DNA of 64,000 nt from Gemmatimonas sp. (lineage in GTDB: Bacteria > Gemmatimonadota > Gemmatimonadetes > Gemmatimonadales > Gemmatimonadaceae). The position numbers and the translations under genes are program-made. The first letter of the stretch is position 1. Each line of letters opens with the position of its first letter. Where the stretch lies: positions 1-64,000 of the forward strand of contig NZ_JAJTHI010000008.1 of NCBI RefSeq assembly GCF_021298855.1, in the 5' to 3' direction. This document shows, piece by piece, positions 56,342 to 62,835 of the stretch. The notes beneath the pieces were generated by a model. That model did no database searches, was not told the DNA's origin, and saw only the letters and a list, made by a program, of their open reading frames with translations.

Positions 56342-57370
56342 ATGTTTCCGACCATGTCCTCACCGTCCCTCTCCCCCGCGTCGCAGTTCATCGTTGGTGT
56401 CGATCTTGGCGGCACCAACATTGTCGTGTCGTCCATGTCGCTCGATGGCTCGCGGCTCTTCGGCGCCCAGAGCGAACCGACCCACGCGCAGGAGGGGGCG
56501 GACGCCGTGGTGGCCCGCATGGCGCGTATGGTGAACACCACCATCGACGTCACGACGCGCGAGGCGGGGGTACCGCGGGGGGCAGTGTTGGGCGTGGGCA
56601 TCGGCGCCCCCGGCACCGTGGACCGCAAGCGTGGTCTGGTGCTCGCCGCCCCCAACCTCAAGTGGTACGACTTCCCCCTCATCGAGCGCATGGCTGCGCT
56701 CACGGGGTTGCCGGTGCGCATCGACAACGACGCGAATTGCGCCACCTACGGGGAGTGGTGGCTGGGCGCGGCACGCGGGGGGACCAACGTGGTGGGCGTC
56801 ACGATCGGGACGGGCGTGGGCGGGGGCATCATCGTGGACCGGCATGTGTACCACGGCTCGAGCGACGCCGCCGGAGAGATCGGGCACATCACCATCGACC
56901 TCAACGGACGTCGCTGCGGCTGCGGCAACTACGGCTGCCTCGAGGCGTACGCCTCCGGCAGCGCCATCGCCGAGCGGGCGCGCGAGGCGCTGCACAACAA
57001 TGAATCGTCGGTCTTGCCGTCGCTCGTCGACGGTGATGTCAGTCGCATCACGGCGGCGGTCGTTTATCAGGCTGCGGGTCAGGGTGACGCGCTGGCGCTG
57101 GAAATCGTGCGGGACACGGCGAAGTATCTGGGTGCCGGCATTGCGAATCTGCTCAACGTCTTCAATCCCGACGTGGTCGTGATCGCCGGTGGCGTGACGC
57201 AGGCGGGGGAAGCGCTCTTCGGCCCGTTGCGCACCGAAGTCCGCCGCCGCGCCTTCAAGAGTGTCTCCGACAGCTGCCGTATCGTGCCCGGCACGCTGCC
57301 GGGGACCGCCGGCGTGGTGGGTGCCGTGGCCTCGTTCATCTCGCAGACCACCGGCCAGCCGCCGGCGTGA
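56342..57370 (+). CDS. ROK-family sugar kinase (glucokinase-like)
   Basis: A 342-residue ROK protein without an N-terminal DNA-binding domain, so a kinase. The phosphate-binding loop VGVDLGGTN is at 18-26 and the catalytic Asp is in DNDANC (128-133). GTGVGGGIIVD follows, and the zinc site consists of EIGH (His182) and CGCGNYGCLEAYAS (Cys192, Cys194, Cys199). Glucose is the likely substrate. ATGs at 56342 and 56354 are both in frame. It overlaps the PfkB gene by four bases and is the first gene of the run leading to ftsEX. It is divergent from the beta-lactamase-like gene. Confidence 0.9.
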   Translation: MFPTMSSPSLSPASQFIVGVDLGGTNIVVSSMSLDGSRLFGAQSEPTHAQEGADAVVARMARMVNTTIDVTTREAGVPRGAVLGVGIGAPGTVDRKRGLVLAAPNLKWYDFPLIERMAALTGLPVRIDNDANCATYGEWWLGAARGGTNVVGVTIGTGVGGGIIVDRHVYHGSSDAAGEIGHITIDLNGRRCGCGNYGCLEAYASGSAIAERAREALHNNESSVLPSLVDGDVSRITAAVVYQAAGQGDALALEIVRDTAKYLGAGIANLLNVFNPDVVVIAGGVTQAGEALFGPLRTEVRRRAFKSVSDSCRIVPGTLPGTAGVVGAVASFISQTTGQPPA

Positions 57371-58413
57371 CGATGTCAGCCACGGCCGGTACCGGCGCGC
57401 CACGCAAACGCGTGGGGGTGATCGGCTCCTTCGTGTGGGATGTGCTGCATGGACGCGACCGGCGCAGCGTACCGATGGAGGAGTGGGGGGGCATTACGTA
57501 CTCGCTGTCGGCGCTCGACGCGGCACTGCCCGATGACTGGGAGATCGTGCCACTCGCCATGGTGGGTGACGATCTGGTGGAACGGGCGCAGCTGTACATC
57601 CGGGGGCTGCGTCGCATGGCCCCCGACGCCGCGCTCATTGGTGTGCCGTACCCCAACAACCGCGTCGAGCTGCGCTACCTCGACGACGAACGGCGCACCG
57701 AACATCTCACCGGTGGCGTCCCCGGATGGACCTGGCTGGGGCTCAAGCCGGTGCTGGACGCGGCGCGGCTCGATGCGCTCTACATCAACCTGCTCAGCGG
57801 GTGGGAGCTCGACCTCGAAACGGCGCAACTCATCCGCGCCCACTTCACCGGCCCCATCTACTGCGACCTGCACATGCTCGTCATGGCGGTCCAGGCCGAC
57901 GGCCTGCGCACGCCGCGCCCGCTTCCCAATGTCGCGGAGTGGTGCAGCTGCTTCGACGTGCTGCAGGTGAACGAGGACGAGATGCGCCTGATGGCCCCCG
58001 ATTCCATGGCGCTCGCGGCCACCGCGATGGCGGCCGGGGTCTCCATCCTCGGCGTTACCCTCGGCAAGCGCGGCGCGGCGTACTTTGCGGCGCCGGGCAT
58101 TGAACGCCTGCAGGATCTGCCACCGCGCCGAGGTCACAACGTTGCGCTGTCCACATCACCACGGGGTGGCGCTGGGGCGCTTGGCGCCGTGCGCACGGCA
58201 CTCGTGCCCGGCGTCGCGCCGCGCGTGGACGGCCCCGGAGATCCCACGGGATGCGGCGATGTGTGGGGCGCCACCCATTTCTCACGACTCCTCGCCGGTG
58301 ATAAGTTGACGGAGGCCATCGCGGCGGCGAATCGGGCTGCGTCGCGCAACGTCGAACATCGTGGGGCCAATGGTCTCGCGAATCATCTCCGCGGAGAGCT
58401 CAGCACCACGTGA
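57367..58413 (+). CDS. PfkB-family carbohydrate kinase
   Basis: A 348-residue ribokinase-fold enzyme. The N-terminus has VGVIGSFVWDVL and the substrate lid segment GGITYSLSALDAAL. The C-terminal signature is DGPGDPTGCGDVWGATHF (about 288-305), with the catalytic base Asp298. It is more divergent than typical sugar kinases and carries an insertion of about 25 residues around 255-285, so the sugar or nucleoside substrate is unknown. It starts with GTG overlapping the ROK stop (ATG alternative at 57373), and its stop overlaps the next GTG. Confidence 0.85.
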   Translation: MTMSATAGTGAPRKRVGVIGSFVWDVLHGRDRRSVPMEEWGGITYSLSALDAALPDDWEIVPLAMVGDDLVERAQLYIRGLRRMAPDAALIGVPYPNNRVELRYLDDERRTEHLTGGVPGWTWLGLKPVLDAARLDALYINLLSGWELDLETAQLIRAHFTGPIYCDLHMLVMAVQADGLRTPRPLPNVAEWCSCFDVLQVNEDEMRLMAPDSMALAATAMAAGVSILGVTLGKRGAAYFAAPGIERLQDLPPRRGHNVALSTSPRGGAGALGAVRTALVPGVAPRVDGPGDPTGCGDVWGATHFSRLLAGDKLTEAIAAANRAASRNVEHRGANGLANHLRGELSTT

Positions 58414-59354
58414 CGATCGTCATCAGCGTGCCGCCCTCGCTCGACGAACACTCGTTCGAGCAGGTCATCGAGCAGCTCGCCGCCGCCCCCGACGGATCGA
58501 AGATCCTGCTCGACGCGCGGCACGCGCGTTGGGCCTCGCCGTATGGGCTGACCGCCCTGTTGTGCGTGCCTCAAGCCCGCCCCGAGCCCATCGGCTTCGC
58601 GGTGCCCGAGCACCCCGACACGGTGCGCTACTGGTCGCGCGCCGGCTTCTTCCGCCATGCGGCCGAGTTGTACGAACTGCACGGCGCCGTGCCGCGCGCC
58701 CGCGAGGCGCACGAAAGCGAGGTGCTGCTGGAAATCACGCCCATCGCGAAGAGCGACGATGTGCACGGCGTGGTGGGACGCATCCAGCAGAAGGCCGCTG
58801 ACATTCTGCACGGCCAGCTCAACCTCGACACCGCGGTGACCGGCGCCTTCGGCATGACGCTGAGTGAGTCGTGCCAGAACATCGTCGAACATGCCGGCGT
58901 GGGCGGGTGGGTGGCGGTGCAGACCTACAATTACAAGCAGCGCCTGGGCCGTCGGGTGGTGCAGATCGCCGTGTGCGATGCCGGCGTGGGCTTCCGCACG
59001 TCGCTCGAAAGTTCGCCCGGTCATCGTCACAAGGATCGCTGGGATGACGCCATGGCCCTCGAGGATGCGGTGCTGCGCGCCGTGTCGCGCTTTCGGCACG
59101 GCGATGCCGGTCGTGGCCAGGGACTCGCGGGGATCCGGCGCTTCGTCGGGCGCTGGCACGGCAAACTCACCGTGCGCAGCGGCACGGCGCGCCTGGGGAT
59201 CATTCCCGAGTGGGACGAGGATGTGCCCATGACCGAGGGGCTGCCCTTCTTTCCGGGGTCCCAGATGCAGATCATCATCCCGGAGCGCTCGGCCGATGCG
59301 CCGGCCCGCGCCCGCAGCACGGCGGCGGCAACCCGCGGCCGGAGCCGCTTCTGA
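58410..59354 (+). CDS. STAS-like/HATPase fusion (anti-sigma-type ATPase)
   Basis: A 314-residue protein with two parts. Residues 1-95 (ISVPPSLDEHSFEQVIEQLAAA, KILLDARHARWASPYGLTALLC) look like a STAS or MlaB-type fold. Residues 125-290 form a GHKL ATPase: N-box ESCQNIVEHAG (Asn157), G1 VCDAGVGF (Asp190) and G2 GRGQGLAGIRR (234-244). No dimerisation His box is present, so it is of the anti-sigma/serine-kinase class and not a sensor kinase. It is coupled to its neighbours by overlaps (GTGA at the start, TGATG at the end). The last 25 residues are basic and disordered. Confidence 0.8.
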   Translation: MTIVISVPPSLDEHSFEQVIEQLAAAPDGSKILLDARHARWASPYGLTALLCVPQARPEPIGFAVPEHPDTVRYWSRAGFFRHAAELYELHGAVPRAREAHESEVLLEITPIAKSDDVHGVVGRIQQKAADILHGQLNLDTAVTGAFGMTLSESCQNIVEHAGVGGWVAVQTYNYKQRLGRRVVQIAVCDAGVGFRTSLESSPGHRHKDRWDDAMALEDAVLRAVSRFRHGDAGRGQGLAGIRRFVGRWHGKLTVRSGTARLGIIPEWDEDVPMTEGLPFFPGSQMQIIIPERSADAPARARSTAAATRGRSRF

Positions 59355-59938
59355 TGCACATCGACGTGGGTATGGTGCTGCGCGGCACGGTGTGCGACCT
59401 GTATTCCAATCTCGTCACCCGCCCCACCGGGGCGGCGGTGCGATCGGCGATCGAGCGCCAGGTCACCGAGATCGGGGCGCCGGTGGTCACCACCATCGAC
59501 TTCTCGCAGGTCAACCTGCTCGATTTCTCCTGCGCCGACGAAATCGTGGCCAAGCTGCTGCTGCGCTATGCCAGCGAGGACGGACCACCGGGGTATCTCA
59601 CCTTCCGCGGCATTCACGAAGGCCACATCGATCCCATCGAAACCGTCCTCGAACGGCACGCCCTGGCGCTGGTCTCCTGGCACGAGGGCGAAGCGGAGCT
59701 GTTCGGTTACGTGGACGACGACGAGCGCGATCACTGGCTCACCGTGCGGGATCACGGGCCGGTGCTCTCCGCGACCGTCGCGCAATTGTTGGGGGTGGCA
59801 CCGGAGTTCGCCGAAGGGCAGCTGGAGCGGTTGGCCCGCCGTCGCCTCGTCATGCGTCACGAGACGGGGTATTCGGTACCAGGCGTGGTGCATGGCGCGT
59901 CCGGTACGTTGCCGGGCCACGGACAGGGAGTACAGTGA
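59354..59938 (+). CDS. STAS-like (DUF4325-type) protein
   Basis: A 194-residue protein. Residues 25-110 resemble the STAS-like DUF4325 domain: SAIERQVTEIGAPVVTTIDFSQVNLLDFSCADEIVAKLL, with Ser59 where anti-anti-sigma factors carry the phosphorylated Ser/Thr. Residues 140-175 (SATVAQLLGVAPEFAEGQLERLARRRLVMRH) look like a small winged helix. Its partner is presumably the GHKL ATPase encoded just upstream, whose stop codon it overlaps. The substrate of any switch, sigma factor or otherwise, is not encoded nearby. Confidence 0.75.
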   Translation: MHIDVGMVLRGTVCDLYSNLVTRPTGAAVRSAIERQVTEIGAPVVTTIDFSQVNLLDFSCADEIVAKLLLRYASEDGPPGYLTFRGIHEGHIDPIETVLERHALALVSWHEGEAELFGYVDDDERDHWLTVRDHGPVLSATVAQLLGVAPEFAEGQLERLARRRLVMRHETGYSVPGVVHGASGTLPGHGQGVQ

Positions 59939-60285
59939 GCGACGACAAGAAGCGTCTCGGGGGCCCGGTGGGCGGGGCGAGCAAGCGGGGTCTGTTCAGC
60001 GGGTTCTCCCCCCCGCTGCAGGTGGTGGGGTTCATTGCCACCCGCATGGGCGATCCCGACCGCGGTCCCCTCGTCCGCATGCGCCCCGATGACGCGCTCA
60101 TTCGCCTCGTGACCGCGGGCGATCTGGTGCGTGTGGTATCGGACCGCTGCTCGGAGCTGGCCGTCCTGGAGGTCGATGAATCGCTCCCGCGCGGGGGCGT
60201 CGTGCTTCGGGACGTGGTGGGCGCGTCGCTGGCGGAAGTCATCCGGGTGCTCCGGGTGGACAGCGCCCCACGTCCTCGTCCCTGA
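59935..60285 (+). CDS. Small hypothetical protein
   Basis: A 116-residue protein that I do not recognise. A Gly/Lys/Arg-rich N-terminus is followed by a beta-rich core (VRMRPDDALIRLVTAGDLVRVVSDRCSELAVLEVD, then GGVVLRDVVGASLAEVIRVLRVD). The pattern is faintly like a double-psi or OB-type small barrel. The GTG at 59935 overlaps the previous stop and has AGGGAG upstream. It lies inside the ROK-to-EnvC run, between the STAS-like gene and the PLP-fold gene. Confidence 0.65.
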   Translation: MSDDKKRLGGPVGGASKRGLFSGFSPPLQVVGFIATRMGDPDRGPLVRMRPDDALIRLVTAGDLVRVVSDRCSELAVLEVDESLPRGGVVLRDVVGASLAEVIRVLRVDSAPRPRP

Positions 60286-60296
60286 TCCCCTCTTCT

Positions 60297-61253
60297 GTGT
60301 CTCACTCGCTGACCCGTCGGCTGGCCGAGTTGGAGGGCGCTGAAGCGGCCCTCGTGCTGGCCAGCGGTCGCGCGGCGGTTGCCTGCACGGCGCTCGCCCT
60401 GCTCCGCCCGGGCGATCACCTGCTTGCCGGATCGGCGCTGCAGGCCTCCACACGGGCGTTCTTCACCCGCGAACTGCCTGCGCTGGGCACGGAGGTGACC
60501 TACGTGGATCCGCGGGAACCGCGCGGCTGGCGACGCGGTCTGCAGCGAACCACCCGGGCCCTGTTCGTGGAGTCGCCGGTGATCGACAGCGGACGGCTGG
60601 TGGACCTGCGCCCGCCCCGCACGCTCGCCAATGAACTCGGGACCGCGCTCATCGTGGACGCCACCGGGGCATCGCCGGTCAACTTCACGCCGCTGGCGCA
60701 TGGCGCCGATGTCGTGCTGCACGACGCCACGGCGTTCATCGAACCGCATGGCAAGGGCGAGGTGGGCATCGTGGCCGGCACCGAGGCGCTGGTGGAGGAA
60801 GTGCGTCTCAAGATGAAGGCGTGGGGCGCTGACCCTCACCCGGCGGCCTACGCCCAGCTCGAGCGCGGCCTGGCCACCCTCGAGGTGCGTGTGCACCATC
60901 AGAACAGCGTGGCCCTCCAGGTCGCCCAGTGGGCCGGTACGCACCCACAGGTGTCCGGCGTGGTATACGCCGGCCTCCCCGACCACCCGGACCAGCCGTT
61001 GCTGGCGGAGTGGTTCAAGGGCGCCGGTGCGCTGGTCCTGCTGCAGCTGCAGGACGGGCACGACCCGGCGCGTGTGAGCGCGCACGCCACCGCGCGCCTG
61101 CGGGAGGGCGTCGAGCCCACGCGGGTGTCCACCCGGTTCCTTGCGCAGGGCGAGACCGGCTGGTTGCGCGTGGAGGTGGGGTTGGAGCCCGCCGAGCACC
61201 TCGCGGATGCCCTCGCCGCCGCGCTGGCCGTCGCGGCCTCGTCGCCCGCGTAG
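60297..61253 (+). CDS. Cys/Met-metabolism PLP-fold protein lacking the PLP lysine
   Basis: A 318-residue protein clearly of the cystathionine gamma-synthase group: RRLAELEGAEAALVLASGRAAVACTALALLRPGDH, VDATGASPVN (Asp121 equals the pyridine-ring Asp) and WLRVEVGLEPAEHLADAL. The lysine motif SATK is replaced by DATA (Ala146), so no Schiff base with PLP can form. The N-terminal 50 residues, including the Tyr/Arg loop that binds PLP phosphate from the neighbouring subunit, are also missing. It starts with GTG 11 bp after the previous gene and ends 3 bp before ftsE, suggesting a non-catalytic role there. Confidence 0.8.
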   Translation: MSHSLTRRLAELEGAEAALVLASGRAAVACTALALLRPGDHLLAGSALQASTRAFFTRELPALGTEVTYVDPREPRGWRRGLQRTTRALFVESPVIDSGRLVDLRPPRTLANELGTALIVDATGASPVNFTPLAHGADVVLHDATAFIEPHGKGEVGIVAGTEALVEEVRLKMKAWGADPHPAAYAQLERGLATLEVRVHHQNSVALQVAQWAGTHPQVSGVVYAGLPDHPDQPLLAEWFKGAGALVLLQLQDGHDPARVSAHATARLREGVEPTRVSTRFLAQGETGWLRVEVGLEPAEHLADALAAALAVAASSPA

Positions 61254-61256
61254 CCG

Positions 61257-61970
61257 ATGTCCGAGATTCTTCGCGTCACGAACGTGTCGAAGGAGTATCC
61301 GCGTTCGGGGATGGCACTGCGTGATGTGTCCTTCGAGATGCAGAAGGGCGAGTTCGTTTTTCTCGTGGGGCACTCGGGTGCCGGCAAGAGCACGCTGCTC
61401 AAGCTGCTCACGATGGCCGAGCGCCCCACCGCCGGCGAGGTGCGCGTCTCGGGGTTCTCCAGTTTCTCCATCCAGCCACGTGACGTGCCGCAGTTGCGCC
61501 GCCGGCTGGGCGTGGTCTTCCAGGACTTCCGCCTGCTTCCCGACCGCACGGCCGAGCAGAACATCGCCTTCGCGCTCGAGGTCACCGGGACGCCCGGCGC
61601 GCAGATTGCGCCGAAGGTGGCCCGACTGCTGACGCAGGTGGGGCTCGCCGCCCGGGCCACCGCGTACCCGCATGAGTTGTCCGGAGGCGAACAGCAGCGC
61701 GTGGCAATCGCGCGCGCCCTCGCCAACGATCCGTTCCTGCTGCTTGCCGACGAGCCCACGGGCAATCTCGACGACCGCGCCACGCACGCCATCTACCTGC
61801 TGCTGCGGGAGATCAACGCCCGTGGCACCTCGGTGCTCATGGCCACGCACGACGTGGCCATGATTCAGCGCGCGGGCATGCGCTGCCTCGAGCTGGATCA
61901 CGGGCAGCTCGTATTCGACGGCACCGACGTGGGGACCCTGGTGGCCAACATGCGCGGACGGCGCGGGTGA
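61257..61970 (+). CDS. ftsE: Cell division ATP-binding protein FtsE
   Basis: A 237-residue ABC ATPase. Walker A GHSGAGKST is at 38-46, followed by the signature LSGGEQQRVAIARALA, Walker B LLLADEPTGNLD and the switch His in ATHD. The FtsE-typical LGVVFQDFRLLPDRTAEQNIAFAL is present. With FtsX it forms a divisome complex whose ATPase cycle drives periplasmic murein-hydrolase activation through EnvC-like proteins. The linkage to ftsX (7 bp gap) supports FtsE over LolD. Confidence 0.95.
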   Translation: MSEILRVTNVSKEYPRSGMALRDVSFEMQKGEFVFLVGHSGAGKSTLLKLLTMAERPTAGEVRVSGFSSFSIQPRDVPQLRRRLGVVFQDFRLLPDRTAEQNIAFALEVTGTPGAQIAPKVARLLTQVGLAARATAYPHELSGGEQQRVAIARALANDPFLLLADEPTGNLDDRATHAIYLLLREINARGTSVLMATHDVAMIQRAGMRCLELDHGQLVFDGTDVGTLVANMRGRRG

Positions 61971-61977
61971 GCCGGCC

Positions 61978-62835
61978 ATGAAGCTTGCCCTGCGCGAGGT
62001 CATCCTCGCCTTCCGCCGCGCGCCGCTCATGGCGATCCTCGGGGTCGTCACCATCGGCTTCTCGCTGTTCGCCTTCGGGCTCTTCGGACTGGTGGCGCTC
62101 AACATCCGCACGGCGCTGCGCGAGGTCGAGGACCGGGTGGAGATCCGCGCGTTCCTCGTGGAGGGCGCGCGCGACACGCAGGTCGAGGCACTGATGCGGC
62201 GCCTGCAGGCCGATCCGGCTGTGGCGACCGTGGGCTACGTGTCGCCCGATTCGGCGCTCACGCGCGCACGGGCCGAGCTGGCGGAGTTCCGCGATGTCCT
62301 GGACGGCGCCTTCCTGCCCGGGTCGGTGGAATTGCGCCTGCGCGAAGGGCGTCGCGATCCGGAGACGGTGGCGGCGCTGTCGCGACGCCTGCAGACCTAT
62401 GCGGTGGTGGAGGACGTGCGCTACGGGCGGGAGTGGGTGGAGAAGCTGTACCGCATCCGCAACATCGCGGCGCTCGTGGGGACCGTGCTGGGCAGCGTCT
62501 TTGCGCTCGTCGCCGTGATCATCATCGGCAGCACCATCCGCATGGCCATTCTGGCGCGCACGCGCGAGATCGAGATCATGCGCCTCGTGGGTGCCACGAA
62601 CATGTTCGTGCGCCTCCCCTACCTCATCGACGGGACGCTCAAGGGGCTGCTGGGCGGCATCCTCGCCGCCATCCTGTCGTACGGCACCACCGTGGTGCTG
62701 GGGCGCTCGCTCATGCAGACACAGTTCTTCGACGCCCGGCAACTGCTCCTCGGCATTCTGGCGGGTGGGCTGCTGGGCCTGATCGGCAGTTGGGGGTCGG
62801 TGGGACGCCACCTGCGCCAGGTGTGGCGCGACTGA
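61978..62835 (+). CDS. ftsX: Cell division protein FtsX
   Basis: A 285-residue membrane protein with four transmembrane helices: one near 20-42, a periplasmic loop domain of about 110 residues (VEIRAFLVEGARDTQVEALMRRLQADP), then helices near 165-190, 215-240 and 255-275. The cytoplasmic coupling segment REIEIMRLVGATNMFVRLPYLIDGTLKGLLGG is typical. It is the membrane partner of FtsE; the periplasmic loop should bind the EnvC-like product of the next gene. Confidence 0.94.
   Translation: MKLALREVILAFRRAPLMAILGVVTIGFSLFAFGLFGLVALNIRTALREVEDRVEIRAFLVEGARDTQVEALMRRLQADPAVATVGYVSPDSALTRARAELAEFRDVLDGAFLPGSVELRLREGRRDPETVAALSRRLQTYAVVEDVRYGREWVEKLYRIRNIAALVGTVLGSVFALVAVIIIGSTIRMAILARTREIEIMRLVGATNMFVRLPYLIDGTLKGLLGGILAAILSYGTTVVLGRSLMQTQFFDARQLLLGILAGGLLGLIGSWGSVGRHLRQVWRD

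Follow-up and report, generated by a model that had tools for sequence, protein, structure and literature searches.

A gamma-family gene between a conserved gene cluster and ftsEX

The window analysed here, a 64,000-nucleotide stretch of contig NZ_JAJTHI010000008.1 from Gemmatimonas sp., contains on its forward strand an open reading frame at 60297–61253 that begins with a GTG codon and encodes a 318-residue protein. The product matches the Cys/Met metabolism PLP-dependent enzyme profile PF01053 with 197 bits against a cut-off of 27 (E = 4.6e-58), in an alignment that begins at profile position 55 and runs on, which places it in that family. By sequence it is a relative of cystathionine gamma-synthase and methionine gamma-lyase (fold-type I PLP enzymes, gamma subfamily) in which the lysine that forms the Schiff base with PLP is absent. 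It scores under every NCBIfam equivalog cut-off listed, as do the two ftsE-linked, lysine-bearing orthologues tested. Three intact, lysine-bearing gamma-family paralogues are present elsewhere in the genome.

The genes of the locus stand in the order PfkB, HATPase, 59354 protein, 59935 protein, the 60297 gene, FtsE, FtsX and EnvC. Upstream, on the same strand, lie a PfkB-type sugar kinase (57367–58413), a conserved operon partner with synteny across the order; a GHKL ATPase-like protein (58410–59354), named from its synteny and from a match to HATPase_c (PF02518) of 23.3 bits, under the cut-off of 26.4; a conserved protein with no Pfam match (59354–59938), which reads like a STAS/DUF4325-type partner and is syntenic across the order and at most of the class-level loci read; and a small conserved protein (59935–60285) with a weak molybdopterin-dinucleotide-binding-like match (24.9 bits, cut-off 26.8), whose gene overlaps the end of the 59354 gene. 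The 60297 gene starts 12 bp 3' of the stop at 60285. Downstream, FtsE (61257–61970, forward strand, assigned by Pfam scan) starts 3 bp past its stop and is followed by FtsX (61978–62835, forward strand, FtsX_ECD and FtsX Pfam matches) and EnvC. The PfkB and EnvC labels are readings of the sequence with no family scan behind them.

Elsewhere in the family and order, other genera show the same arrangement, PfkB–HATPase–59354(–59935)–gene–FtsE–FtsX–EnvC. In sampled loci from the order's two remaining families, tblastn did not detect the 59935 protein. Several lysine-bearing genomes (e.g. L061, L284 and L300) have a gap of about 1.1 kb between the enzyme gene and ftsE. The initial annotation had described the gene as a neighbour of ftsE; it does adjoin ftsE, but its conserved context is wider, extending from PfkB through EnvC. 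In 10 of 12 class-level loci outside the order, a lysine-bearing homologue has the HATPase and 59354 genes close by; eight of these ten also have PfkB in the stretch read, and two are more loosely arranged. FtsE was sought beside these class-level homologues and gave no match in the stretches read. The deeper association is therefore with the PfkB–HATPase–59354 module, and the link to ftsE is younger. The cluster at 57367–60285, to which the 59935 gene is added within the family, is conserved across the class beside a gamma-family PLP enzyme; to our knowledge, what the cluster does has not been described.

Active site and predicted fold

Thirty genomes of the genus were searched for the gene. 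It was readable at the ftsE locus without the lysine in 26 sequences, the window included, and with the lysine in one (L070). In the window, HDATAFIEPHG aligns on HSVTKYINGHG of solved methionine gamma-lyases, so that Ala146 (codon gcg, 60732–60734, forward strand) occupies the PLP lysine position and HDATA replaces HSATK. The initial annotation had read SATK as DATA at this site, and the alignment bears it out. Lysine, which an active enzyme requires here, is found in 0 of the 26 sequences, and the serine of SATK is retained in 19% of them. Ten residues occur in place of the lysine (A, V, L, M, T, E, R, H, F and G).

The loss extends beyond the lysine, and the residues listed initially proved incomplete. 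SALQAST aligns on SAIYGAT of the solved enzymes, placing Gln49 (60441–60443, forward strand) at the position of the tyrosine that stacks against PLP (YGGT); this tyrosine is at least 95% conserved in lysine-bearing sequences and present in 0 of the 26 lysine-less ones. The C-terminal substrate segment SLGGVESLVSEPRxTSH has mostly disappeared as well. The N-terminal arm, which in relatives carries YxRYGNNPN and supplies the Tyr and Arg that bind the neighbouring subunit's PLP phosphate, is absent from the window protein. In the nearest relative, an in-frame stop stands a few codons 5' of the start. The arm is missing from all lysine-less members of the genus, where either in-frame stops or the end of the upstream gene leave no space for it, or the sequence at that place fails to match. 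The N-terminal phosphate loop had been reported as absent; this holds for the arm, but a second phosphate-binding loop, S-G-(M/R), persists as Ser23-Gly24-Arg25 (60363–60371, forward strand; Gly in 26/26, Ser in 23/26).

Two further active-site residues are retained, in agreement with the initial annotation, which had noted Asp121 and the C-terminal WLRVEVGLE segment. Asp121 (60657–60659, forward strand) is conserved in 26/26 sequences; in active gamma-family enzymes the corresponding Asp pairs with the pyridine nitrogen of PLP. Arg291 (61167–61169, forward strand), within WLRVEVGLE, is kept in 22/24 and corresponds to the Arg that binds the substrate carboxylate in active enzymes. The other positions conserved in the lysine-less set are mostly structural and include Gly residues, GDH, R76, W78, T86, R87, E92, D138, W176-G177, R198 and G295, whereas the positions lost are those of the PLP site and the substrate loop.

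Retention of Asp121, the SG loop and Arg291 is what might be expected if the protein still bound PLP or an amino acid as a sensor, or had altered its chemistry around a moved lysine. We regard this as very improbable, given that the stacking Tyr is lost in 26/26, the SATK serine is mostly replaced and the phosphate-binding arm is absent. K172, the one lysine that most lysine-less sequences share, was considered as a relocated catalytic residue and rejected, because the lysine-bearing family members checked already have Lys there. With the lysine lost, the protein would be unable to form an internal aldimine, as had been proposed.

The AlphaFold2 model of the 318-residue protein has a pLDDT of 94.2 and a pTM of 0.92. 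Its best match among solved structures is methionine gamma-lyase 5dx5 (Z 38.9, 1.6 Å over 305 residues), and the Foldseek result agrees. An intact gamma-family fold is thus predicted with confidence, upholding the earlier expectation that the fold is preserved; stability and production of the protein are a separate matter. Relative to methionine gamma-lyase and cystathionine gamma-synthase, the window protein is matched from enzyme residue 63 on and shares the predicted fold, the Asp and the carboxylate Arg, but lacks the PLP lysine, the stacking Tyr and the N-terminal arm, and its substrate loop is eroded. On the PF01053 match, the AlphaFold2 model and the 5dx5 match, we annotate 60297–61253 as a putative lysine-less gamma-family pseudoenzyme.

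Loss of the lysine within the genus

The lysine-less state is not an artefact. Sequencing or assembly error, including one that would restore SATK as the initial annotation had allowed for, has no point in its favour and is ruled out, at a vanishingly small probability, by the 26 lysine-less sequences, among them the closest relative (87% identical), which carries the same Ala. None of the 26 reading frames has an internal stop, two of them being cut by contig ends.

Outside the genus, orthologues from the family and order are full-length and carry RYGNNPN, YGGT and SATKYLNG. The first sample contained 31 lysine-bearing orthologues, one from inside the genus, and Lys was also found in 20 further genomes of the family, all in the same gene order; altogether, about 50 other genomes of the order have an orthologue at this gene order that retains SATK and the N-terminal arm. 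Examples such as L061, L069 and L295 are about 38–47% identical to the window protein and, unlike it, also keep SLGGVESL...PRxTSH. The lysine was therefore lost in place. Lysine-bearing orthologues beside ftsEX had been named as a finding that would overturn the original reading. They do exist, in these approximately 50 genomes, but they represent the ancestral state rather than a refutation.

The single lysine-bearing member of the genus, L070, retains SATKY and the C-terminal substrate segment SLGGVDSLVSEPRVTSH. Its contig begins at codon 58 of the gene, so the comparison covers codon 58 onward and the N-terminus is unsequenced; a second contig end carrying the N-terminus was looked for and not found. 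Quick trees with SH-aLRT support only were used to place it. In the tree of six neighbour proteins, L070 falls inside the genus with the lysine-less L066 and L084, and in the gene's own tree it lies inside the genus (support 99), adjoining L066 (85). Horizontal regain in L070 is ruled out by these groupings, with which the FtsE, FtsX and EnvC of the contig agree. Because joint regain of the lysine and the substrate loop is unlikely, the gene tree requires at least two losses in the genus and the neighbour tree at least three; plain parsimony with regain permitted needs two changes. The sequences thus point to at least two losses of the lysine in the genus, with three or four more likely, and the catalytic machinery is lost across almost the whole genus, probably more than once. 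In another genus, L272 has lost the lysine independently, the site reading VHAEATSLSG. This second lysine-less version of the gene (L272:5071–6177) has a degenerate N-terminus, and its SGM loop is changed to GGAV.

Probable retention of the protein without catalysis

The lysine-less gene remains under selection at the protein level. Its dN/dS is 0.06–0.30 in pairs within the genus, where its neighbours mostly show 0.01–0.15, and non-synonymous change is far under the neutral expectation in 9/9 pairs tested (Fisher p 1e-10 to 1e-43). In most of the genus pairs compared it is the fastest-evolving gene of the operon, whereas in lysine-bearing clades its pace is about that of its neighbours. The constraint on the lysine-less gene is relaxed but real. 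Lost catalytic residues, a predicted intact fold and protein-level selection are the features of a pseudoenzyme, and we consider it reasonably probable that the product of 60297–61253 is one kept for a non-catalytic role.

Clean deletions of the gene occur as well. In G027, a member of the genus, about 110 bp separate the 59935 and FtsE genes, and this interval contains neither a remnant of the gene nor any N; the gene likewise seems missing, less certainly, from G011, which sits on a long branch. It is missing at the locus in two genomes of genus g31, one of g28, one of g25 and three in family f2. These repeated deletions indicate that the gene is not essential throughout the order. In the g25 genome G222, a membrane protein (L276:2882–4285) occupies the place of the PLP-enzyme gene and may be read as an AI-2E-type transporter.

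The main rival to a retained pseudoenzyme is a dying relic, a redundant enzyme whose frame is held open mainly by polarity on ftsEX until the gene is deleted. The rapid evolution, the varied residues at the lysine site, the tight 3-bp spacing to ftsE and the repeated clean deletions all fit such a course. So does the finding that genomes of other genera in which the gene is lost or broken carry two or more further gamma-family enzymes, where many lysine-bearing genomes have one. Gain of paralogues as an explanation is suggestive rather than exclusive, several lysine-bearing genomes also having four or five family members. Polarity would guard against stops but not against missense change, yet dN/dS is held at the values given above; the 26 frames are open, the structural residues are invariant and the predicted fold is a high-confidence one. 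On balance we judge the relic unlikely, though it deserves serious weight.

Alternatively, the protein might be a dead subunit that pairs with one of the cell's active gamma-family paralogues and tunes it. Lysine-less subunits of fold-type I PLP enzymes are known in serine palmitoyltransferase (LCB1/SPTLC1) and glycine decarboxylase (GcvPA), where they pair with a co-functioning active subunit; the window protein resembles them in that a fold-type I protein has been kept although its PLP lysine is gone, but it has no co-encoded active subunit and its interface arm is missing. In cystathionine gamma-synthase and methionine gamma-lyase structures, a subunit's PLP site is completed by the N-terminal arm of the adjoining subunit, a contribution that the armless protein could not make. 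The three intact paralogues in the genome and the predicted fold are compatible with pairing, as is a precedent in an unrelated enzyme: activation of trypanosomatid deoxyhypusine synthase by a dead paralogue (PMC3663545). With no active paralogue encoded at the locus, we give this arrangement only a slim chance.

Retention as a pseudoenzyme is favoured by the residue losses, their occurrence in multiple lineages, the purifying selection, the predicted fold, the three intact paralogues and the class-level synteny. Against it stand the faster evolution in most genus pairs, the clean deletion in G027, less certainly in G011, and in other genera with the neighbours remaining, and the residues at the lost positions, which do not converge on a single solution of the kind that a specific new function might call for. 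The protein resembles pseudoenzymes in general (PMC10211241) in having lost conserved catalytic residues while its fold is retained; the main text of that review mentions neither PLP nor pyridoxal. No report of a gamma-family pseudoenzyme, or of Gemmatimonas together with ftsE, was found in the open-access literature searched.

On the pseudoenzyme reading, the ancestor would have been a PLP-dependent gamma-family enzyme with a full N-terminal arm, the YGGT tyrosine and the SATK lysine, encoded in the PfkB–HATPase–59354 cluster, which would later have been joined to ftsEX–envC in this order. Catalysis may then have become dispensable in the genus, plausibly as other gamma-family enzymes of the same genomes cover the chemistry. 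Several lineages then lost the PLP lysine along with the stacking Tyr, the arm that contacts the phosphate and the substrate loop. Selection held the fold, and PLP chemistry would be wholly gone. The remaining fold may serve a protein–protein role, as scaffold or regulator, most probably with co-encoded partners of the cluster and not with FtsE specifically. The initial annotation had suggested a binding or regulatory role tied to ftsE: non-catalytic retention is consistent with the selection and the predicted fold, but the tie to ftsE is weak because class-level lysine-bearing homologues sit in the PfkB–HATPase–59354 cluster with no FtsE in the stretches read and because the gene is cleanly deleted in lineages that keep ftsEX. 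A more specific proposal, that the dead enzyme is a PLP-independent adaptor between the kinase/GHKL-ATPase module and FtsEX–EnvC reached in parallel by several lineages, we consider improbable.

One gene in one place provides a natural series, in the genus and its relatives, from intact PLP enzyme through broken active sites to clean deletion, and it offers a direct way to study why selection still acts on a protein once catalysis is gone. Family-based annotation of the gene as a cystathionine synthase or lyase would be incorrect for most of the genus. Should a division-linked role be shown, the protein would represent a new kind of FtsEX partner.
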